In this document: one piece after another, positions 6,541 to 26,536 of the stretch | Layout: every line of letters begins with the position of its first letter | How positions within the stretch are numbered: the stretch's first letter is position 1 | Virus record (IMG/VR): IMGVR_UViG_3300034407_002138 | Span: 1-42,722 of that record | DNA length: 42,722 nucleotides | Source of the DNA: a virus | Direction: 5' to 3' (one strand) | The notes under the pieces: generated by a model | Seen by the model: the letters and a program-made list of their open reading frames with translations, nothing else | Databases searched by the model: none | What the model was told of the DNA's origin: nothing | Position numbers and translations under genes: made by a program

Positions 6541-6809
6541 GGGATTGACCGTGATCCCTATCGTGTGTATTACGGCACAACCCGTGAACAGTCGGTGTTT
6601 CTGTTGCCAGGTACACCGATCAAACCCCGACTACCTAATTAGGCAGCCATTGCATACTCATATTGGTCTGCATTTAAAAATGAAATCTCAGTTAGGATAC
6701 TTACTATAAGTCAACCCTATTTCACCCCCTCAGTCGAGGTTTATCTTGGTGGAGGTGGTGGGTACTGCCCCCACGTCCTCTATAGCGTTTTACAAAACGT
6801 CAACGACTT
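6541..6809 (-). ncRNA. ssrA: Circularly permuted (two-piece, alpha-type) tmRNA
   Basis: The acceptor piece comes first: a T-arm with 5-bp stem GTGGG/CCCAC (6774-6770/6762-6758) and loop GGCAGTA, then CACCTCC-ACCA ending at 6747. After a 17-base spacer the coding piece starts with GGGGGTG (6729-6723), which pairs with 6757-6751 as a 7-bp acceptor stem whose third pair is G-U, the alanine identity element. The tag frame at 6671-6639 reads ADQYEYAMAA-stop. The stop lies in the loop of a hairpin (6646-6631), as in other tmRNAs. A pseudoknot follows: CGGTGT/ACACCG (6618-6613/6598-6593) interlocked with AACAG/CTGTT (6605-6601/6591-6587). The order acceptor, spacer, coding piece is that of alphaproteobacterial ssrA. 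The RNA ends (about 6809 and 6541) are estimates. Confidence 0.92.
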
Positions 6810-6814
6810 CAGTA

Positions 6815-6845
6815 TATTTATATCACATTTTATTTAAGTTGTCAA
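6815..6845 (-). promoter_or_regulatory. Overlapping sigma70 and T4-late promoter for the tmRNA
   Basis: On the - strand TTGACA (6845-6840), a 17-base spacer, then TATAAATA (6822-6815). The first six bases of TATAAATA serve as a -10 box for sigma70 and the whole octamer is the T4 late promoter consensus. The tmRNA could therefore be made both early and late. The TGA inside TTGACA is the stop codon of the carbamoyltransferase gene. Confidence 0.8.
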
Positions 6846-8308
6846 CTCTTTCTTATGATATAATCATCAATCACTAATATATCAAGATTAGTATTTTTAA
6901 AAGTATTGATTGCATCCTCAGGTGTTTCAACAATCGGTTCTTGACAATTAAAACTTGTGTTAAGAAGCATAGGTATACCTGTGATTACATGAAACCATTG
7001 AATAAGTTCATAAAATCTTGGGTTGTCTTTTGAATCTACAGTTTGTATTCTTGATGTATTGTCAACGTGTGTAACACCTGGTATTTTATCTGATTTGACT
7101 TTCACAATTCGTGACATGTATGGCGATGATTGATTTGTATCAAAGTAATCTTTATAGTGTTCAATCATAACTGATGGTGCAAATGGTCTAAAGTCCTCTC
7201 TTTTTTTTATAGTCAGATTAATTATATTTTTTATATGTGGGTTTCTAGGATCTGCCAATATACTTCTATTACCTAATGCACGATTACCACTTTCAGATTT
7301 ACCTTGAAACCAACCAACAATTTTTCCGTCAGCAATACATTTTGCAACTTCTTTTAAGTTTACTTTTTCTTTGCCAACATAATTATATTTTTTACCTGCG
7401 TAAACGTTTGGTACATGTTTATTATTATTGATAGTGTAATCACAATGCATGTAAGTGCCTAAAGATTGTCCTTCATCACCGGGTGCTGGAGGTACAAAAA
7501 CATTTTTGTATATCTCTGTTAACTTTTCATTCACATATCCATTGTATGCAACACCACCTGTAATACATAAATTATCTGATGTTTTATATTTAATTATAGT
7601 TTCAAATATTATCTCTTCAGTTGCATACTGTAACGTATAAGCAATATCTTGATGACTAACATTTTTTATAATATCTTCAAATTTTTCATATGGTTCTAGT
7701 TCATTTGTGTGCCAAAAATTATCTAACAACATATGAAGTTCAATATTGTATTTTCCATAAGCTGCTAAACCCATAACTTTACTTTCACCATAAACGCCAA
7801 ATCCTATTTTTTTTGAAAACCAATCCCATGCCGTACCGACATACAAATTTAAATTATTAAGTTTACCATTGTTATTGAAAAAAACAGTATTGTATTTGTA
7901 TCCTCTACCATCAATCGCTAATATATCAGATTCTTGAAACCCAGAACTCAAAAAAGCATACGCCGCATGAGATTGATGATGATCAATATAATATAAGTTT
8001 CCCTCTTTTTTATAATCCCACAAACAATCAGGTTCCCAATCCATAAAATTTTTTTGTTCTTGCAATGATTCAATATGATTAAATCCACCTACTGTGGTTG
8101 TAAATGCAAATATTTCATGTGATTGTGGATTCCAATAATCTTTGTAAAATTGTTTACCGGCAGAATTATCATTTCGATTCATTTTTATAGAATCTTTATG
8201 ATGTGGTATATTATGTTTTAATCTAGTGTGTCTTTCTAATTGATTGTGCCAAACTCCGTCATATGTATTATGATCATGTTTATTGAATGCAGCACTAAAG
8301 ATTTTCAT
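6842..8308 (-). CDS. NodU/CmcH-family carbamoyltransferase
   Basis: The 488-aa enzyme should transfer carbamoyl from carbamoyl phosphate to a hydroxyl, usually on a sugar. The N-terminal Kae1/YgjD-like ATPase part shows YYIDHHQSHAAYAF (metal-binding His) and LAIDGRG, then VMGLAAYGK and ITGGVAYNGYVNEK. The C-terminal domain has VGWFQGKSESGNRALGNRSI, FRPFAPSV and MLLNTSFNCQEPIVETPEDA. All family motifs are present and the length is close to typical, slightly short. The ATG at 8308 is preferred over an in-frame GTG at 8320; neither has a clear ribosome site. It could decorate host surface glycan or a phage nucleotide. Confidence 0.88.
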   Translation of the reverse strand: MKIFSAAFNKHDHNTYDGVWHNQLERHTRLKHNIPHHKDSIKMNRNDNSAGKQFYKDYWNPQSHEIFAFTTTVGGFNHIESLQEQKNFMDWEPDCLWDYKKEGNLYYIDHHQSHAAYAFLSSGFQESDILAIDGRGYKYNTVFFNNNGKLNNLNLYVGTAWDWFSKKIGFGVYGESKVMGLAAYGKYNIELHMLLDNFWHTNELEPYEKFEDIIKNVSHQDIAYTLQYATEEIIFETIIKYKTSDNLCITGGVAYNGYVNEKLTEIYKNVFVPPAPGDEGQSLGTYMHCDYTINNNKHVPNVYAGKKYNYVGKEKVNLKEVAKCIADGKIVGWFQGKSESGNRALGNRSILADPRNPHIKNIINLTIKKREDFRPFAPSVMIEHYKDYFDTNQSSPYMSRIVKVKSDKIPGVTHVDNTSRIQTVDSKDNPRFYELIQWFHVITGIPMLLNTSFNCQEPIVETPEDAINTFKNTNLDILVIDDYIIRKS

Positions 8309-8312
8309 ATTA

Positions 8313-8987
8313 TTAATCACTAATATAACTTAAACTTGTTTTGTTAAAATCTTGTAAAGCAGATGATAACATATCTAAATATTCCTCAGTTTTTTCTCTT
8401 ACAAACTCTTGAACTGTACCGTCTTCAGTGACTACAAGTATAACTATTTGACTTATAGGTGTACCTGTTCTTTCTTCATACATCTCAGCATATGCTGATG
8501 CTTGAATATAATAGTTCTCATTCCATTTATCATTTCTTTCTTTTGATGATGTTTTGAAATCTATTATTGATAGTTTACCATCATACTCAGCGATGCAATC
8601 TACACGACCTGCAATACCTAACTTATCAGAGTACAACGCACATTCTTGATAGTGTATATTGTTTATTTTTTCAATCATTTTAGGTTTTAGTTGATTAAAC
8701 AAACAGGCTGCAAAAAATGGTTCGGTTTTAACTTCTTTGTTGTTTAAAAAATCTTCACACATATGATGCACTTTTGTTCCACGATTTGCGGCAGTCCTTG
8801 CCACATAGTTTGCAACATCCTCACCAACTTTTTTACGCCACTCAAATAATCCTTTTTTATTTCTAGATGATAAAACTGTAGTGATTGACGGATACTTGTT
8901 TCCGTCTGGTGTGATATAGTATCTTTTTTTATCTATATTTTCTGTTTTTAATTTTGGTAATTCATTTACTGATACATGATTAAACAT
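8313..8987 (-). CDS. PD-(D/E)XK exonuclease (RecB/Cas4-like)
   Basis: The 224-aa protein has the nuclease core near residues 126-150: GIAGRVD (Asp130), then LSIIDFKTSS (Asp143, Lys145), followed by YYIQASAYAEMYEE, the helix carrying the conserved QxxxY motif. Upstream, ANRGTKVHHMCEDFL is the usual helix with a conserved His. It resembles the exonuclease common in marine T4-like phages. It overlaps the methyltransferase gene by 8 bases and sits before the carbamoyltransferase. A role in host DNA degradation or recombination is likely but not shown. Confidence 0.82.
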   Translation of the reverse strand: MFNHVSVNELPKLKTENIDKKRYYITPDGNKYPSITTVLSSRNKKGLFEWRKKVGEDVANYVARTAANRGTKVHHMCEDFLNNKEVKTEPFFAACLFNQLKPKMIEKINNIHYQECALYSDKLGIAGRVDCIAEYDGKLSIIDFKTSSKERNDKWNENYYIQASAYAEMYEERTGTPISQIVILVVTEDGTVQEFVREKTEEYLDMLSSALQDFNKTSLSYISD

Positions 8988-18691: not shown

Positions 18692-20530
18692 TCACATCAC
18701 TGGTTTGTAAATAGTGATTAATTCTTCCTTTCCTTTTACTTTAATCTTATCAACTTCTATTGATTTGATGTTCGTAAGTTGTTCTTTTGTATAAGATGAG
18801 TAAAGTGTTGATACAACCTTACCATTCTTATCTTTGTAGTTCCTAGTTTGAGCCTCTAATCGTGCAGCCAAATTAACAGCATCACCAATTACAGAATAAT
18901 CAAATCTAGTGTCACTTCCCATATTACCAACAATGCAAGTGCCTGTATTGACACCTGATCCTATATTGATTTCTGGTAAACCTTTTTTCTTAAATTCTTC
19001 TTTTAGTTTTTCAGTTTCAATCGCACATTCAATACTTGTCTTGACTGCCATCTCAGCATGATTTGGGCATTCTAATGGTGCATTCCAAAATGCCATAATA
19101 CAATCACCCATGTATTTGTCCACTGTTCCACCATTATCTAAAACAATTTTTGTCATACGATTTAAATAATCATTAATAACTTCTACTAAACCTTCTGGGT
19201 CATCATTGTTTTTGTAATATTCAGATATTGGTGTAAACCCTACAATATCCATAAACAGAAATGACATCTCTTTTCTTTCACCACCAAGTTTTAATTTACT
19301 AGGGTCTTTTTGTAGTATTGCAACTTGTCGTGGATCTAAGTATGTTTCAAATTGTTTTCGTATTTGTTGTTTTAAATTAAATTCTAAAATAAAACGATTG
19401 AATATGCTGTGCAATCCAACAAATAAAATTGTAATTAAAATCCATGTGATATCGAATAGTAAAAGATATTCTTGAAAGATTACGGCACAATGTATTATTA
19501 ATATAAGAACACCTGAAACCATTGTAAAGGCAACCCAAGGGTATGATGTAAATCTTGTAAGAACAATAATGATTGCTCCTAAGACAAATGCTATAATTGT
19601 CTCTATCAACCAATCAACTCGTCCAACAGATTCACCACTAAGTACTGTATCTAATGTAGATGCCGATAAAATATAATCATATTGTTCACCATTAGGTGTT
19701 GCAATGATGCCACCTAAACCTTCTGCTGTCATTCCTACAATAACTGTACGACCTGCAAATTTTGTAAAATCATTTTCACTTGCTGATATTGTTTCATAAT
19801 CTTTATTCCAACGCAACCATATTCTTCCATTTACATCAGTTTTGATTGGGGAAAACCCAGGCACTCTTAATGCCTCAACTCCAAATTGATTTGCTTTTAC
19901 TTGATAACTTGGTTGTCCTGTTGCAACACGAATGACTTCAATTGCCATTTGTGGATAAGTTTCCTCTCCGATTCTCATTATTAAAGGAACTCGTCTAACT
20001 ACACCATCTAATTCTGGTGCAGTATTAATCACTCCAACTCCGTCTGCAACTTGTAATTTAGGAATAGGTCCTAACATTCCTGGCCATTCAAAAAGATAAG
20101 GAATGGGATTACCGACTTTTGCAACTCCTCTTGGAACTGTATTCTTATTAGTTTGTGTAGTTCCTACTTGAGCAATAACAACTCCCATGTTAGTTAATGA
20201 TTGTGCAAACGCATCATCACCACCTAAACGATCAGGTTCTGAAAAAAGTATTGGCATCATAATGATACCGACACCTGATTCTCGTAATTTGTAAATTAAA
20301 TCTGCAAGAATATCTCTTTTCCACGGCCATTGTCCATATTTTTGTATTGATGCTTCATCAATAGTAACGATTCCAATATTTTCAGAGATTGTTTTTTCTT
20401 CAGATTGAAACAATAAATCGAATGATTTAAGTTTAAGAATTTCTTTAATTTGAGGATTTTGTAGTCCTAAAAATGTAATTAAGACTAATGTAACAAATGC
20501 AAACGTCCAATGAGTAATTATTTTTTTCAT
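18692..20530 (-). CDS. CHASE2-domain class III adenylate cyclase
   Basis: The 612-aa protein starts with a membrane helix (about 8-24), then a periplasmic CHASE2 sensor (about 35-300, with IGIVTIDEASIQKYGQWPWK and a D-G-V-V-R-R-V-P motif), three membrane helices (about 308-375) and a class III cyclase domain (about 415-600). Catalytic residues are all there: FLFMDIVGF (Asp428), DKYMGD (Lys472, Asp476), DYSVIGDAVNLAARLEA (Asp544, Asn553, Arg557). The Lys/Asp pair predicts ATP, so it should make cAMP. It is the last gene of the curli-like operon, its ATG overlapping the previous stop (TAATG). CHASE2 cyclases often sit next to FecR proteins in bacteria, as here. A full-length membrane cyclase is very rare in a phage. 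Confidence 0.93.
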   Translation of the reverse strand: MKKIITHWTFAFVTLVLITFLGLQNPQIKEILKLKSFDLLFQSEEKTISENIGIVTIDEASIQKYGQWPWKRDILADLIYKLRESGVGIIMMPILFSEPDRLGGDDAFAQSLTNMGVVIAQVGTTQTNKNTVPRGVAKVGNPIPYLFEWPGMLGPIPKLQVADGVGVINTAPELDGVVRRVPLIMRIGEETYPQMAIEVIRVATGQPSYQVKANQFGVEALRVPGFSPIKTDVNGRIWLRWNKDYETISASENDFTKFAGRTVIVGMTAEGLGGIIATPNGEQYDYILSASTLDTVLSGESVGRVDWLIETIIAFVLGAIIIVLTRFTSYPWVAFTMVSGVLILIIHCAVIFQEYLLLFDITWILITILFVGLHSIFNRFILEFNLKQQIRKQFETYLDPRQVAILQKDPSKLKLGGERKEMSFLFMDIVGFTPISEYYKNNDDPEGLVEVINDYLNRMTKIVLDNGGTVDKYMGDCIMAFWNAPLECPNHAEMAVKTSIECAIETEKLKEEFKKKGLPEINIGSGVNTGTCIVGNMGSDTRFDYSVIGDAVNLAARLEAQTRNYKDKNGKVVSTLYSSYTKEQLTNIKSIEVDKIKVKGKEELITIYKPVM

Positions 20531-20730
20531 TAAATATAAATATCAGGTTCTTTTTCTACACAAAATGCTCTGATATTAGTTCCTGTTTCAATAAATCTTC
20601 TATTAAATCCATTTTGATATATCAGACATTGTTTCATAGTAGGCATTTCTATTATAGGTAGTTTATCAAAAAAGGCCCATTTTTCTGTTTCATAATTAAA
20701 AACCATAGCAATTAAAAATATTTTTATCAT
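20530..20730 (-). CDS. 66-aa hypothetical protein between curlin and cyclase
   Basis: The protein opens with a short hydrophobic stretch (MIKIFLIAMVFNYET), then KWAFFDKLPIIEMPTMKQCL and two Cys in a charged C-terminus. It could be exported with a weak signal sequence and form one disulphide. Start and stop overlap both neighbours (ATGA and TAATG), so it is part of the operon. No family was recognised; a role in fibre or cyclase function is suggested only by position. Confidence 0.6.
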   Translation of the reverse strand: MIKIFLIAMVFNYETEKWAFFDKLPIIEMPTMKQCLIYQNGFNRRFIETGTNIRAFCVEKEPDIYI

Positions 20731-21668
20731 TGTTGTGTCACACTTATACTACATCCACCTACTGTTTGACAGTTTTGAGATAATGAATATGTACCATCAG
20801 TTGTTGTATTATTTGTTCCCATAGTCAAATCTAAATCCGTTCCGTAAGTTCCACTTAAAGTGATTATAGCAGATTGTGAACCACCTGATTTTCTTTGGTA
20901 AATATCTACATCATTATAATCATTATTCACAGTTAGAGATAACGATTTATCATTATTATGTTCTTGTTTAATAAAGATATTATTGTTATCACCATAAATG
21001 TAAGAATAATTAGTATGTTCAGTTAAATTATTATTTGCTCTTTGACTTGCAATATAACTGTTATTATCACCAGAAATATAAACATTCATATAATGTCCAC
21101 CATGTTCTTGATAATCATAACTAAAAACACCTGTGCTTGAAACATCATAACCTTGTGCCATTATTATTTCATTGTCATTTGCAACTACGTTTAATATCAT
21201 TATGTCTTGGTCGCAAGTTGAATATGAACAGATTTGTTTTGCTATTACATCATTGTTATCATAATCAATTTCTAAATCCATGCTTGCGTTTTGATGAATT
21301 TGTGACGCTGTGAAATTATTATTATCACCGTGATTATCTAAGTACATGACAAGATTATCACCTGTTTGTGTAGCAGTCATATTACTTGCAGTTTGATTAT
21401 CAGAACCATAATAGTGTTTGTATAGACCAATCTTATTATTATCGCCTGTTTGTGTAAAATTGATTGTTTGATTTTTACCCACTAAAGTAGCATTTGAGGC
21501 TGCTGTGCTTTTTGTAGAAACTCTATTGTTTTCACCGTCTTGCGTTATAGTTATTGTAGGATTATTACCAACTTGACTTATGTAAATTTCGTTTGCATTT
21601 GCGTACTTTATAGTTTGCACACTTAAAAAAACTATACTAACGCTGATAAATATCGACATTATTGACAC
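20727..21668 (-). CDS. Curlin-repeat (CsgA/CsgB-like) secreted protein 1
   Basis: The 313-aa protein has a signal peptide (to about residue 25, ending YANA) and then repeats of the curlin type, with Q-x-G-x-N-N and alternating I/V/T: YISQVGNNPTITITQDGENN, INFTQTGDNNKIGL, TATQTGDNLVMYL, YISGDNNSYIASQ, YIYGDNNNIFIKQ. Such repeats fold into stacked beta-strand-turn units that form amyloid fibres. The GTG at 21668 has AGGAG six bases upstream; ATG at 21659 is an alternative. The repeats are more divergent and longer than in E. coli CsgA (151 aa). Two Cys pairs (ICSYSTC, NCQTVGGC) are unusual for curlins. Confidence 0.82.
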   Translation of the reverse strand: MSIMSIFISVSIVFLSVQTIKYANANEIYISQVGNNPTITITQDGENNRVSTKSTAASNATLVGKNQTINFTQTGDNNKIGLYKHYYGSDNQTASNMTATQTGDNLVMYLDNHGDNNNFTASQIHQNASMDLEIDYDNNDVIAKQICSYSTCDQDIMILNVVANDNEIIMAQGYDVSSTGVFSYDYQEHGGHYMNVYISGDNNSYIASQRANNNLTEHTNYSYIYGDNNNIFIKQEHNNDKSLSLTVNNDYNDVDIYQRKSGGSQSAIITLSGTYGTDLDLTMGTNNTTTDGTYSLSQNCQTVGGCSISVTQQ

Positions 21669-22755
21669 TGCCTTCTCCTACGATAAATTCTCTGATTTGT
21701 ATATCAGTTTGTTCTAAATTAATTTCATATTGTGATCTTTTACTTAACACGATACGAACAAAATTGTTTGGACCTTGTCTTGAAAAAATAAAATTTCTAC
21801 CATCATCGACAACAATAACGCCATTTTCAAGTTGACCTGTTTTTTGTTTTTTCTCAACAAAAACATCCGTCAATTCAGACAAAAATTCTTGAGCCAGTAT
21901 TTTATTTATCTGATCTAAAATATCTGCTAAAAAATCTTGTTTGAGGAAATCAATATCCAATTCTGTAAATTCTTCATCCTCTGAAGTTGTTGCTAATAAA
22001 TCTTCATTCAGTGCATCTATTTCTAAAAAATCAATATCTAAAACATTGGCACGTTTCTTTGCTTCTTCTTTTGCTTCTAAATCATCAATCTCTCTTGGTG
22101 GTGATAATATAAGTAAATTGGAAATCATACTTTCATCAATATCCACAGAAATAGGTTTGAATGGTTTTGTTTCTGGCGCTTCTACTCTTGTTGCTTGAAA
22201 TGCTTGATTCATTATAACTTGACCTGCATCAGATTCAACAGATATTTCACCAACAAAACAATTACCATTTGTATCACAACTTGGTAATAAGATAATAGTT
22301 GATCCACCAATCTCATCAACAATCATCGCAAAGTCTGTACCACGAACACCGATGGTTGCTGTTGGTGTTTGTATTTTTACATTATCTCTGTAATCTTTTG
22401 CAATTTGACCAGATGCATATTTGACTGTTCCTAAAGCAGCAGTTAAAGAAAGTCCACCTTTTTTGTTTGCTGGATCATAGATAAATTCATCTATGATTAA
22501 TTTTGAATGTTCAGTAATTTCAACTGTGGTGTCATCAACGAAAGTAATTCCTGTTCTTCCGTTCCCTGTCTTGACTTCATCATAAGAAAAAACATCTAAC
22601 TCCTTTTGAAGTTGGAGTTCGCCACCGTCTGTTCTTTTGATAACACCTTTACCTTTAAGATCGGTTACATTTCCAATACTGGCATCTATACTGTTAGAGT
22701 AAAGTAACAGAAATAGAAAATACAATACTGAAAGTATTGAAATCCATTTAGTCAC
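21637..22755 (-). CDS. FecR-domain periplasmic protein with curlin-like C-terminus
   Basis: The 372-aa protein starts with a signal or anchor (WISILSVLYFLFLLLYSNSI), then a FecR domain (roughly residues 30-155): IGNVTDLKGKGVIKRTDGGE, TGNGRTGITFVDDTTVEITE, SKLIIDEF and TPTATIGVRGTDFAMIVD. The middle (about 200-300) is acidic and helical. The end shows curlin-like pieces: SRQGPNNFVRI and SVNNVDIYQR. FecR domains are periplasmic sensors or scaffolds; pairing with CHASE2 cyclases is known in bacteria. The start is uncertain: GTG at 22755 or 22785, neither with a good site. It overlaps both curlin genes. Confidence 0.82.
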   Translation of the reverse strand: MTKWISILSVLYFLFLLLYSNSIDASIGNVTDLKGKGVIKRTDGGELQLQKELDVFSYDEVKTGNGRTGITFVDDTTVEITEHSKLIIDEFIYDPANKKGGLSLTAALGTVKYASGQIAKDYRDNVKIQTPTATIGVRGTDFAMIVDEIGGSTIILLPSCDTNGNCFVGEISVESDAGQVIMNQAFQATRVEAPETKPFKPISVDIDESMISNLLILSPPREIDDLEAKEEAKKRANVLDIDFLEIDALNEDLLATTSEDEEFTELDIDFLKQDFLADILDQINKILAQEFLSELTDVFVEKKQKTGQLENGVIVVDDGRNFIFSRQGPNNFVRIVLSKRSQYEINLEQTDIQIREFIVGEGSVNNVDIYQR

Positions 22756-23458
22756 TTTGTGTAATATCAATATCAAAATCGTCACCTGTTACATCTAAAT
22801 CTATGTTATTATCATACACGCCAGACTGCGTAATGTCAAGGGTTCCACCACCACCTGTAATATCTACAAGTATCGTGTGTCCGTTTACATCACCATTTCC
22901 GTCAACATCAATATTCATCGCAACGCCCTCATCTGAGTTTGTCGAATTTGTTGATAATGATGATGAATTGTCAACTGTTACAGTAACAGAAGCACTTTGG
23001 CCATCTACATCAACATTCGTTACATTGTGATCACCTGTTAATGTAAATGATACAGTAGAACCATCTGCGTCTGCAACTTCACCTATATCAAAATCAAATG
23101 TGTTATCATCACCTGATGTAGTAATGTTTAATGTGACATTATCACAATTACCTGATGATGTCGAACTACACAATAAGTCCACAGTATTTGAATCACCTGT
23201 AAATGACCAAGTTCCTGTATATGAACTTCCTTTAATTATCGCATCTATTGTATTTGTATTACCTGTTTGTGTAATACTAAATGTCATATTATCACCATTT
23301 AAAGTCATGTCTGTTGTTGAATCACCAATCTCGTTATTCTGTCCGTCTTGTACGATGTCCAAATCAAGATTGTCACCAACCTGTTCTATATAAATATCAT
23401 TTGCGTAAATTGACCCACAAAACAACGTCAATAATAAAATTAACGTCTTGTTTATCAT
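22748..23458 (-). CDS. Curlin-repeat (CsgA/CsgB-like) secreted protein 2
   Basis: The 236-aa protein has a signal peptide (MINKTLILLLTLFCGSIYA), then curlin-type repeats: IYIEQVGDNLDLDIVQDGQN, MTFSITQTGNTNTIDAIIK, LDITQSGVYDNNIDLDV and a final FDIDITQSD. It is very acidic and rich in Asp, Asn, Thr, Ser and Gly, with one Cys pair (LLCSSTSSGNC). AAGGAG lies eight bases before the ATG. Together with protein 1 it may form a two-subunit fibre (major plus nucleator), as CsgA/CsgB; which is which cannot be told. Confidence 0.82.
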   Translation of the reverse strand: MINKTLILLLTLFCGSIYANDIYIEQVGDNLDLDIVQDGQNNEIGDSTTDMTLNGDNMTFSITQTGNTNTIDAIIKGSSYTGTWSFTGDSNTVDLLCSSTSSGNCDNVTLNITTSGDDNTFDFDIGEVADADGSTVSFTLTGDHNVTNVDVDGQSASVTVTVDNSSSLSTNSTNSDEGVAMNIDVDGNGDVNGHTILVDITGGGGTLDITQSGVYDNNIDLDVTGDDFDIDITQSD

Positions 23459-23462
23459 TTAT

Positions 23463-24230
23463 TTACTCCTTATATTTCCAAACTTCCTTATCTACTCCTT
23501 GTCCTATTAATTCCATAATACCTTGTTCTATAGCAGCTCTCACTGCATAGTTAACAGGTTCATTCGTTGCAACACCTGTTTCCACTTCGACAGCAGTAGT
23601 TCCCATATCTACAAATCGAAATACATCGGCACTTGTAGCATGAGATGCAATAGTTTTTTCTGTCGCAACTGTTAGTAATACTTCACCAGTTGAAACACTA
23701 ACTACCCTCATTGACACAGTAACATTATCAACTTTATATTGTTGAGTGGCACCAATACCCAAATATCGAGCACCTGCTCCTCCACTTACTATATTGGAAT
23801 CATATCCAATAATTCCACCCTCAATAATCAATCCAGCAAATAACAATGGTTTTAATTGTTTATCGCCTTCTTCATATTGTTCACGTGTTGAACGAATCAA
23901 TTGTCGTTCTTTAATTAAATTATCTAAACCACTTCTTTCAACAACTTTAAACCAAGTACCATTACCAACCTCTTGAAGTGTTTGTATTACCCAAACTTCA
24001 GCACCTTGTGTCACTGCGGTACTTAGTTGACTAAACTTTTCACTTGGTTTTCTTTGACCTGTTTTATCAAAGAAAGTATAAACTGCAACTGTGATCGGCG
24101 GTCCGTCTAATTGTGGTACTGCCTGTAAATCTAAAACTGATTGTGAAACCTTTGGTGGTTCATAATCAAATGTCTTAGGTCCTGTTACACAACCTGTTAA
24201 GAGAAAGAATACAAGTAACCATTTAATCAT
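23463..24230 (-). CDS. csgG: Curli secretion pore CsgG
   Basis: The 255-aa lipoprotein has signal peptide and lipobox LLTGC (Cys14), then the CsgG fold: PPITVAVYTFFDKTGQRKPS, TAVTQGAEVWVIQTL, WFKVVERSGLDNLIKERQLI and the membrane-barrel/turn region LIIEGGIIGYDSNIVSGGAG followed by VSMRVVSVSTGEVLLTVATE. CsgG forms a nonameric outer membrane pore for curli subunits. Length is close to E. coli CsgG (277 aa). Start overlaps the csgF stop (TAATG). Confidence 0.92.
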   Translation of the reverse strand: MIKWLLVFFLLTGCVTGPKTFDYEPPKVSQSVLDLQAVPQLDGPPITVAVYTFFDKTGQRKPSEKFSQLSTAVTQGAEVWVIQTLQEVGNGTWFKVVERSGLDNLIKERQLIRSTREQYEEGDKQLKPLLFAGLIIEGGIIGYDSNIVSGGAGARYLGIGATQQYKVDNVTVSMRVVSVSTGEVLLTVATEKTIASHATSADVFRFVDMGTTAVEVETGVATNEPVNYAVRAAIEQGIMELIGQGVDKEVWKYKE

Positions 24231-24667
24231 TAAAACCCAAAATCACCAATTGGAACTGTTACAGTTGTCACGGTACCATCTTCTTCAGTCACTCTAATCA
24301 TAATAGTTCCTAAGTCGGTATCCTTTTCCCAATAGATTTCTGCTCCTTCAATCTCTGCTGTTCCTGTATTAGCGCCATCTTCAGCGAACATATTATCAAC
24401 TAATTGTTTTGATAAATTCGCATAGATACGTGATTCTAAGTTTGCAAGAAAACGATTTACTGTTTCGTTTTCTTCTTCTCGTTTGGCATCACGTTCTGCC
24501 GCTTCAATATCATCTTTTATCTGTTCTTTTCTCGTAAACTGTAATTGTTCTATTGATAGAACATGAGATGAGTATCCTTGACCAGAAAAACTAGGATTAT
24601 TAAAATCATGTACTAGTTCGCTGGCCGACACAGAAACACAAAAAAACAGTATAAATAACGTTCTCAT
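24230..24667 (-). CDS. csgF: Curli assembly factor CsgF
   Basis: The 145-aa protein has a signal peptide (MRTLFILFFCVSVSASE) and the CsgF N-terminus that plugs the CsgG pore: LVHDFNNPSFSGQGYSSHVL, then SIEQLQFTRKEQIKDDIEA, a charged helix and a C-terminal beta region ending PIGDFGF. Length matches E. coli CsgF (138 aa). It is directly followed by csgG, the usual csgF-csgG order. No ribosome site is obvious before the ATG. Confidence 0.88.
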   Translation of the reverse strand: MRTLFILFFCVSVSASELVHDFNNPSFSGQGYSSHVLSIEQLQFTRKEQIKDDIEAAERDAKREEENETVNRFLANLESRIYANLSKQLVDNMFAEDGANTGTAEIEGAEIYWEKDTDLGTIMIRVTEEDGTVTTVTVPIGDFGF

Positions 24668-24674
24668 AACGTTT

Positions 24675-24932
24675 CTATTTATCTGTTTTGTCTTCTTTAT
24701 CCTCGTTTTCTCGCATTTCTAGTGCAGTATTCAGTTTAGAACGTAGTCTAATAATGTCATTATCTAACATTCTGACCCTATCGATAAGAGCTATCAACAC
24801 TTTCATTGTGTTATCTAACTTTTCAATGATTTGTGTTGTCACATAATTGTAAATAAAGTAGATAAAATAACCCATGGCAACAGCTGCCAATGTTGCGAAA
24901 CCATATTGTTCAAGTATTTGTAAAACGTCCAT
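24675..24932 (-). CDS. Membrane/coiled-coil protein, paralog of the next gene
   Basis: The 85-aa protein has one membrane helix (about residues 12-32: FATLAAVAMGYFIYFIYNYV) followed by a coiled coil (IEKLDNTMKVLIALIDRVRM, LDNDIIRLRSKL) and a charged tail. It is clearly homologous to the 93-aa gene just upstream. The layout is that of BhlA/UviB-type holin-like proteins. Its stop lies 7 bases before csgF, so it may belong to the curli operon. Start and previous stop overlap (TAATG). Confidence 0.65.
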   Translation of the reverse strand: MDVLQILEQYGFATLAAVAMGYFIYFIYNYVTTQIIEKLDNTMKVLIALIDRVRMLDNDIIRLRSKLNTALEMRENEDKEDKTDK

Positions 24933-25213
24933 TAGTCCTTTCGTGCATCTTCCTTACCATCAGATCGTGATAATCTATCTAAATCTGGTTTGAGATGTAA
25001 TGCATGAGATACTAATAAATCTAATTTAATCATATCATGATTCATTGTCTTGATACGATTATCTAATTGTGCAATGATACCTGTAATTGTTTTTACTTGA
25101 TCAACAACACCTGCTAAAATATACTTTAGGATGATGTAAATGAATAATCCCATTGTGATTGCAGCCGCAACAGGTAAACCAAACTGTGTAAGTATTTGAA
25201 AGAATAAATCCAT
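24932..25213 (-). CDS. Membrane/coiled-coil protein, first of tandem pair
   Basis: The 93-aa protein reads MDLFFQILTQFGLPVAAAIT, MGLFIYIILKYILAGVVDQV, then a coiled coil TGIIAQLDNRIKTMNHDMIK and a charged tail. The pattern (short amphipathic start, G-rich turn, one membrane helix, coiled coil) repeats in the next gene, so the pair arose by tandem duplication. BhlA-like holin or an inner-membrane partner for the curli genes are both possible. Confidence 0.65.
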   Translation of the reverse strand: MDLFFQILTQFGLPVAAAITMGLFIYIILKYILAGVVDQVKTITGIIAQLDNRIKTMNHDMIKLDLLVSHALHLKPDLDRLSRSDGKEDARKD

Positions 25214-25224
25214 GTTACTATATA

Positions 25225-25953
25225 TTAGTATCCACCTCGTTTAACAATTTGTAAAATTGCCGAATCCCAACAATCATAATAATTCAAACCAGTTGCACTT
25301 TCAAATCTTTCTATGAAAACATTTTGTAAATCATAATCTTTATTATCTTTTGGCCAATTAGATTTCATAACAAATGTTGGAGGCATGAGTTCAATTGTTC
25401 CTGTAAGTTCTATCATTTCTTGTACGAAGTTTTGTTCACCTCCAACAATTCTTGTAGAACCTGCATCTTCATGCAAAGCATAATATTCTCTAAAATATTC
25501 ATAGTGTTTATTATAGACTTTTGGAATATATTTAAAATCATGTGAATTAAATTTGTAAAATGTTCCACACATTCTACATACATCATTATCTTTTTTCCAC
25601 CATCTATCTACTGATAATAATGTTTTCTTTTTTACATGATGTTGAACTATATCAGTTGGATTTTTATTCCATATCATATCTAAGTCAGACACAATTGTTT
25701 GATCAGTTCTACTGGCACCAATAAATTTTGGATCAAAAAACTGTAACTTCTTCCAATGTGTATGAACTTTAACATCATCTTTATCATAATTAATATTATT
25801 AATATATGGAATATCTACAGGTTTGTCAGTAAGTAAATGAAACTTTATATCAAGACAACTATCATGAACAGGTTCTGTGATATTTTCAAGTAGTTCTTCA
25901 ACGTTTTGATAATGACACTCATTACCATATTTAACAATACAATAATGTATCAA
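25225..25953 (-). CDS. GT-A type glycosyltransferase-like protein
   Basis: The 242-aa protein has IVSDLDMIW (Asp90-x-Asp92), the DxD metal/nucleotide-sugar motif, preceded by a strand/helix layout typical of GT-A enzymes, and later GGEQNFVQEMIE in the acceptor region. No ATG is available; the TTG at 25953 with GAGG upstream is taken as start and overlaps the PIG-L gene by 23 bases. It groups with deacetylase and methyltransferase genes, suggesting sugar modification. Confidence 0.6.
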   Translation of the reverse strand: MIHYCIVKYGNECHYQNVEELLENITEPVHDSCLDIKFHLLTDKPVDIPYINNINYDKDDVKVHTHWKKLQFFDPKFIGASRTDQTIVSDLDMIWNKNPTDIVQHHVKKKTLLSVDRWWKKDNDVCRMCGTFYKFNSHDFKYIPKVYNKHYEYFREYYALHEDAGSTRIVGGEQNFVQEMIELTGTIELMPPTFVMKSNWPKDNKDYDLQNVFIERFESATGLNYYDCWDSAILQIVKRGGY

Positions 25954-26536
25954 CTTTAAATACCTCAGCGTGTTTTACATGTACAAATGATCCTCGATAT
26001 CTAGACATGCTATCGATCCCTATGTAATATTCATCTGGCACATTATCATACAGTGATATTGCGTCTAGTTTCTTAAATTTGTATCTTGTAATATCTACAA
26101 ATAAGTTTGCTTCAAAACTTTTATATTTTTGACAATAGGGATATGCATTCATATACCATACATCAAGTTGTTGTTTTCTTCTTAATGAATTACCTAATTC
26201 ATGACAAAATCTGTGATCTTGATGCCAATCTTCACTCCAATGTGTAATTAGTAAATCATATGATTCTACGTCAACTTTTTTTTCTATCTCTGAGATGACG
26301 TTACTTGTCGGCGATTCATCCCTATGATTTAAATATATTGGACTGTATCCTAAAATTTTTGATGATGATGCAACATATTTTTTATGTTTTACGTTTGAAC
26401 ATAAAATAATGTTATCTACTTTAGTTCCTTCATCTACAAACTTTGCGACTGTTCCACCACATGATATTTCTAAATCATCGGGGTGTGCCGATAATACAAG
26501 TATTTTAGAATAATGTTTCAAGATATAATTCCTCAT
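25931..26536 (-). CDS. PIG-L/LmbE-family deacetylase
   Basis: The 201-aa protein has the zinc motif LVLSAHPDDLEISCGGTVAK (His18, Asp21) and the distal HWSEDWHQDHRFCHELGNSL with the third His. These are the PIG-L motifs for removing N-acetyl groups from GlcNAc-type sugars. The ATG at 26536 overlaps the methyltransferase gene by 32 bases. Close in-frame TTG is an alternative start. The likely target is a host or phage-made sugar. Confidence 0.86.
   Translation of the reverse strand: MRNYILKHYSKILVLSAHPDDLEISCGGTVAKFVDEGTKVDNIILCSNVKHKKYVASSSKILGYSPIYLNHRDESPTSNVISEIEKKVDVESYDLLITHWSEDWHQDHRFCHELGNSLRRKQQLDVWYMNAYPYCQKYKSFEANLFVDITRYKFKKLDAISLYDNVPDEYYIGIDSMSRYRGSFVHVKHAEVFKVDTLLYC

Follow-up and report, generated by a model that had tools for sequence, protein, structure and literature searches.

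The 42,722-base IMG/VR virus fragment IMGVR_UViG_3300034407_002138, which comes from a T4-like phage (hereafter the window, meaning the whole stretch of DNA analysed), raises the question of why a phage should carry genes for curli secretion in one operon with genes for a cyclic AMP (cAMP) sensor. The operon runs on the minus strand from position 25213 to 18692 in the order cc2, cc1, CsgF, CsgG, curlin 1, FecR, curlin 2, a 66-amino-acid (aa) open reading frame (ORF) and a CHASE2 adenylate cyclase. Many phages that infect abundant marine bacteria carry such modules, for which conflicting roles have been published: sibling capture, a lysis pore, an uptake pore or superinfection defence. We tentatively interpret the operon, with a confidence that falls somewhat short of even, as a curli (type VIII) secretion cassette that the phage has combined with a FecR-CHASE2 cAMP sensor and that would alter the host surface. 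The gene set and the FecR-cyclase linkage are already known from SAR11 phages, having been reported in 2022 (Wittmers et al., 2022; PMC9599517), so the linkage is not the novelty for which a preliminary description of the window had taken it. Our additions, not found in open-licence PMC papers, are a curlin-like tail on the FecR protein and a copy of the operon in one bacterial contig; the searched text of PMC9599517 mentions neither the tail nor CHASE2.

The genes of the operon, all on the minus strand, are closely packed, with overlaps of 1, 4, 32 and 38 nt and gaps of 4 and 7 nt at their junctions. Their ORFs, strand and coordinates agreed with the preliminary description, which had reported CsgF, CsgG, two curlin-repeat proteins, a FecR protein and a CHASE2 cyclase in one chain preceded by two membrane/coiled-coil paralogs. 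Pfam supported these assignments, the domain calls lying well above the curated cut-offs except for the curlin repeats. The gene content, conservation, domain integrity and tail motif described below are established at the level of sequence.

Two scans of IMG/VR yielded 159 loci; the best 80 matches of each were taken, so the loci represent relatives of the module rather than all phage cyclases. Each of the 50 CsgG loci with 6 kb or more of downstream sequence had curlin, FecR and cyclase in this order (the usual two curlins in 47, a single curlin in two and a split FecR in one), and FecR, curlin and CsgG were present at 66/66 cyclase loci with at least 4.5 kb upstream. Where at least 2.5 kb preceded CsgG, CsgF was found in 86/86 loci and the cc pair on the same strand in 82/86; in three of the remaining four (L009, L010 and L157) the pair lay on the opposite strand. 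Nonsynonymous divergence (dN) of seven genes between the window and L008, L007 and L005 was 0.05-0.15 against a synonymous divergence (dS) of about 0.6-1.9 (one pair saturated), and these genes are under purifying selection. The cultured phages HTVC008M (KC465899) and Melnitz (MZ577097) carry the complete set in the same order, their FecR proteins being 56% and 48% identical to that of the window, respectively; the FecR of HTVC008M is annotated as hypothetical. The position of the module relative to ssb and the tail genes (tape measure) differs between the window and HTVC008M, in keeping with the hypervariable region that PMC7029224 describes.

The preliminary description had raised two concerns, namely that the genes might be scattered in relatives and that the contig might be a chimera of phage and bacterial DNA. 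As to the former, the counts above show that the set is conserved as a unit among phage relatives. As to the latter, the likelihood of an assembly artefact or chimera is negligible: the same set occurs on many independent contigs, including a second one (L004) with the same gene order and a 98% identical CsgG, and the cultured isolates already refute it. The guanine-cytosine (GC) content of the window is flat (0.30-0.38), T4-like genes (ribonucleotide reductase, primase, ssb, gp59 and baseplate hub) flank the module on both sides, and we found no point in favour of a chimera.

Does the operon encode a curli system, then, or a pore put to some other use? CsgG (23463..24230; PF03783, 4e-56) matches the solved Escherichia coli CsgG over residues 5-252 (E 2.5e-53), and the lipobox of its outer-membrane lipoprotein signal was found in 82 of 85 proteins. 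CsgF (24230..24667; PF10614, 6.4e-17) has a signal peptide and retains the N-terminal peptide motif FNNPSF that plugs CsgG, the N-P-x-F motif being present in 77/81 phage CsgF proteins; a single-sequence search with the window CsgF gave no match to the solved CsgF. Two secreted curlin-repeat proteins were identified, curlin 1 (CsgA/B-like; 22748..23458; Curlin_rpt, 0.0011) and curlin 2 (20727..21668; GTG start, 32 nt overlap with FecR; Curlin_rpt, 0.001). The motif [VILYTF]x[VIL]xQ occurs five times in curlin 1 against 0.68 in shuffled sequences (p=0.0015), and the repeat motif of curlin 2 is likewise enriched over shuffled sequence. AlphaFold2 (AF2) models curlin 1 as a beta-solenoid, and this model can be aligned with the CsgA fibril of E. 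coli (8enq; Z 12.0, 110 residues, 24% identity); since it also aligns with many other solenoids, several at a higher Z, the fold alone is no proof of a curlin. With its CsgG channel, its CsgF carrying the CsgG-binding peptide and its curlin-repeat subunits, the operon is predicted to encode a type VIII (curli) secretion system.

These data bear on the proposal made for Melnitz in PMC9004378 from modelling and synteny, according to which the CsgGF channel would be a lysis-timing pore (a pinholin or gated secretin) with the other genes as passengers. The absence of the gate CsgE fits such a pore. The proposal reasoned from the absence of fibre genes, which PMC7029224 and PMC9004378 regarded as missing, yet we found curlin genes in Melnitz itself. 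Moreover, the curlin genes are under purifying selection in relatives, the signal on CsgG is that of an outer-membrane lipoprotein and CsgF has not lost the peptide that plugs the channel. We consider the lysis pore decidedly unlikely.

What, then, could connect the secretion genes with the cyclase? The FecR-domain protein (21637..22785; PF04773, 2.8e-9) is encoded between the two curlin genes, and its C-terminal 68 residues (21640..21843) are beta-rich according to the AF2 strands and have an invariant N-x5-Q ending in the alignment. The motif [VIL]x[VIL]xQ was found within the last 12 residues of all 77 distinct complete phage FecR proteins. It was absent from the controls, comprising 645 other complete ORFs of at least 150 aa from the same loci, 93 cyclases and 83 CsgG proteins, and occurred in 4/76 CsgF proteins, whereas 74 of 78 curlin 1 proteins have the same type of ending. 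In the window the terminal strand reads NNVDIYQR. An alignment of 52 FecR sequences showed that Q381 is invariant and I377 and I379 are nearly so, while the preceding linker is variable; in the subgroup resembling the window protein, the N-x5-Q ending corresponds to a curlin half repeat and is accompanied by an earlier invariant Q. The tail is kept in L009 and L010, both of which lack curlin 2, and is therefore no by-product of the gene overlap. The AF2 model places it as the last strand of a small beta domain (residues 317-381; predicted local distance difference test mostly 70-86), for which a structure search returned only weak immunoglobulin-like matches. The invariant tail thus offers a concrete, testable physical link between the fibre subunits and the cyclase.

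The alternative that the curli cassette and the FecR-CHASE2 cyclase merely share an operon, with a coat separate from a cAMP-driven change of host metabolism, draws on bacterial genomes. FecR-CHASE2 cyclase pairs are common without curli in Caulobacterales, as seen in six loci (L246, L248, L256, L259, L261 and L263) in which a FecR-domain gene stands directly before a cyclase-like gene on the same strand, and neither FecR nor cyclase was found within about 8 kb at 20/20 ordinary bacterial CsgG loci. Against two separate functions stand the invariant gene order, with FecR between both curlin genes in nearly all phages, and the confinement of the curlin-strand tail to curli-linked FecR proteins: among about 40 bacterial FecR proteins without curli linkage only two match the tail motif, and we regard both matches as chance-like. 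We therefore consider this alternative rather unlikely.

The architecture of the FecR protein addresses a further proposal, suggested in PMC7029224 and PMC9599517, that large nutrients or siderophores are taken up through the CsgG pore and that FecR reports iron. An N-terminal export signal precedes the FecR domain, and the protein has neither a cytoplasmic regulatory segment nor a mid-protein inner-membrane helix, so that it is predicted to be periplasmic. Its AF2 model matches the cell-surface signalling domain of PupR over residues 66-225 (6ovk; Z 16.2, root-mean-square deviation 2.5, 135 residues) and a giant-adhesin anchoring domain over residues 34-129 (5ix9; Z 7.7). Lacking the helix and the cytoplasmic domain of true FecR regulators, the protein was ruled out as a transmembrane anti-sigma (iron-dependent) regulator of the FecR type. 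An import pore would also leave the fibre genes and CsgF unexplained, which makes the import model very unlikely.

The last gene of the operon encodes the CHASE2 adenylate cyclase (612 aa; 18692..20530; PF05226, 3.7e-44; PF00211, Guanylate_cyc, 6e-18), which consists of one N-terminal transmembrane helix, a periplasmic CHASE2 domain, three transmembrane helices and a cytoplasmic catalytic domain matching CyaB (3r5g; E 6.4e-31). The catalytic residues D428, K472, D476, D544, N553 and R557 are in place; among them, D428 and D476 are the metal aspartates and K472 and D544 the pair that specifies adenine, following the residue roles established for class III cyclases. By sequence, the adenylate-type active site of the cyclase is complete.

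The combination of FecR with CHASE2 is an established bacterial sensor pairing. In Burkholderia, a biofilm-controlling operon (BiofilmReg) encodes a LysM-FecR protein and a CHASE2 kinase (PMC5192318), and in Sinorhizobium meliloti the FecR gene smc02177, the receptor-like cyclase cyaD1 and the Crp-family gene clr carry successive locus numbers and belong to a single cAMP cascade, in which cyaD1 without CHASE2 produces cAMP constitutively (PMC5498481). As in the phage module, a periplasmic FecR-domain protein is paired with a CHASE2 membrane sensor and linked to surface behaviour or cAMP. In contrast to it, these bacterial systems contain no curli genes, no curlin-like tail has been shown for them, and they act through host regulators (a response regulator and Clr, respectively), whereas no cyclic nucleotide-binding receptor was found in the phages searched. 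The bacterial precedents together with the intact cyclase residues suggest that the phage operon couples the curli secretion cassette to a fibre- or envelope-gated cAMP synthase.

In the mechanism that we infer, the curlins, once exported by the Sec pathway, would leave through CsgG-CsgF and, on the infected cell, build a fibre. The FecR protein would remain in the periplasm, where its terminal strand may dock curlin subunits or the base of the fibre, perhaps standing in to some degree for a nucleator or for CsgE, which is missing. The FecR domain would relay the state of assembly or of the envelope to the CHASE2 domain, and the cyclase would then alter the host's cAMP. What the phage would probably gain is a changed host surface during infection, in the form of superinfection exclusion or cell clustering.

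Several observations weigh against this interpretation. No fibre has been seen, and the Melnitz study saw no clumping among infected cells (PMC9004378). The curlin repeats are degenerate and remain below the Pfam cut-off (E of about 0.001; 19.3-19.4 bits against 20.7), and the FecR tail is short, profile comparison with curlin revealing no homology beyond it (hhalign probability 3.8%, 13 columns). CsgE, whose absence the preliminary description had noted, was found neither in the window nor in five relatives that are larger or complete; for CsgC and CsgD, no search with models of their own was made. CsgE is present in E. coli and generally absent from alphaproteobacterial curli systems (PMC3521004), and it is not defining for curli of the alphaproteobacterial kind. 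Finally, no receptor of the cyclic nucleotide-binding family (PF00027) was found in the window, in HTVC008M or Melnitz, or in three large phage contigs, so that any effect of cAMP would need a host receptor. The preliminary description is thus confirmed in its observation of the operon, and its idea of a fibre- or envelope-sensing circuit is partly supported: the parts are intact and under purifying selection, the FecR tail is universal among the phage proteins and FecR-CHASE2 precedents exist, while we infer the signalling itself.

A relative of the whole operon was found in one bacterial contig, L166 (CANGEH010000001.1; 32 kb), from a Caulobacteraceae metagenome-assembled genome (MAG). It encodes CsgF, CsgG, two curlins, FecR and the CHASE2 cyclase in this order and is flanked by bacterial genes, with glycosyltransferases on one side and an S9 peptidase and a TonB receptor on the other. 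The kind of gene order is that of the phage module and the FecR tail is present (VINVTQD); L166 differs in lacking the cc genes, in having both curlins ahead of FecR and in having a PycTM gene nearby. At 0.527, the GC content of the module is lower than in the rest of that genome (about 0.59), and it drops sharply at the left edge of the module, which makes a chimeric contig or a transferred island possible. Among 385 sampled alphaproteobacteria, only the genome of L166 encodes a protein related to FecR over its full length, its rarity in bacteria being that seen in the sampled genomes. The cyclase tree places L166 beside the main phage clade (94/90), and the Melnitz-type and L009-type cyclases branch elsewhere; given these scattered long branches and the midpoint root, donor and recipient are indistinguishable. 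SAR11 bacteria are hard to manipulate genetically, and the bacterial copy could make the operon accessible to genetics, provided that there is a relative that can be cultured.

The PycTM gene, which encodes a Pycsar effector, lies at 11491-12084 of L166, some 440 nt past the cyclase; no other PycTM match was found in that genome. As L166 is the sole bacterial relative of the complete operon, this gene lends some weight to a model in which the module warns of rival phages: a disturbed envelope would activate the cyclase and, through it, a cyclic-nucleotide effector that halts the cell or the second phage. We regard this model as most improbable: PycTM had no match in the phages searched (PycTIR was not searched), the PycC profile matches reflect general similarity among class III cyclases, and L166 is a single bacterial example in which the linkage is not tight. 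Membership of the phage module in the Pycsar defence systems was likewise rejected, on the lack of PycTM in the phages searched and the adenylate-type cyclase residues. A more specific form of our preferred interpretation would make FecR a dedicated fibre-assembly sensor, whose tail templates or captures periplasmic curlin and in this way gates the CHASE2 cyclase; a phage-encoded checkpoint on amyloid secretion would then set cAMP during infection, and the same circuit would operate in Caulobacteraceae, possibly with a cyclic-nucleotide membrane effector. We hold this form to be doubtful, if worth considering.

Four further loci assigned to bacteria (L163, L164, L165 and L167, from MAGs binned as Flavobacteriaceae, Saprospirales, Synechococcus and Sphingobacteriales, respectively) carry the phage-type cyclase or the whole module. 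They are probably misbinned phage contigs, phage gene families having been confirmed for L167, the one checked. Conversely, the record OR851715.1, labelled Salmonella phage S.Kent 1-2-1, contains a CsgG 42% identical to that of the window, and its small size (1,499 bases) is more suggestive of curli DNA from the host than of a gene of the phage.

The module has also been described in the literature with a different first component. First seen in part in PMC7029224, it was reported from podophages and myophages of Pelagibacter as CsgF, CsgG, CsgA/B, FecR and adenylate cyclase with a 'histidine kinase' ahead, and expression of its genes was reported from ocean metatranscriptomes (Wittmers et al., 2022; PMC9599517). 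The window has the same genes in the same order, namely small gene(s), CsgF, CsgG, CsgA/B, FecR, a second CsgA/B and cyclase, except that the published module starts with a histidine kinase whereas the window starts with cc2 (93 aa; 24932..25213; phrog_18771, 2.7e-37) and its paralogue cc1 (85 aa; 24675..24932; phrog_18771, 3.8e-34), neither with a kinase domain. The small membrane/coiled-coil protein cc2 contains one hydrophobic helix region (residues 7-37), and the hydropathy of cc1 is under the threshold for a transmembrane helix; members of the family, of about 75-127 aa, typically combine one hydrophobic helix with a coiled coil. No kinase domain was detected among the 31 family members scanned. 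A histidine kinase upstream of CsgF was thus rejected, the preceding genes being small and matching no kinase family. Judged by position and number, the published histidine kinase probably corresponds to cc1/cc2, and if so the kinase label finds no support in the sequences. Two labels in the literature, histidine kinase and iron regulator, are thereby corrected; both misdirect experiments.

Among the remaining features of the operon, the 66-aa ORF (20530..20730) lies between curlin 2 and the cyclase with exact start/stop overlaps and was missing from the preliminary description. No homologue was found among 162 loci, nor a match in HTVC008M or Melnitz. T4-type late promoters (TATAAATA and variants) were not detected directly upstream of the operon on the minus strand; such sites also occur within genes, so that this absence says little.

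Elsewhere in the window, no glutamine riboswitch scored above the Rfam threshold, one having been described for Melnitz. A transfer-messenger RNA on the minus strand (6548-6849) is of the permuted alphaproteobacterial type (RF01849, 81 bits) with the tag ADQYEYAMAA, which fits a SAR11-type host. Immediately preceding the curli module are a PIG-L-type deacetylase gene and a second gene without Pfam or PHROG match, glycosyltransferase-like by appearance only (25225-26536, minus), and relatives also accompany the module in L004, L100, L114 and L138. A Nol-like carbamoyltransferase gene (6842-8320, minus; phrog_1601, 4.4e-110) also occurs in HTVC008M, where it lies near the module.

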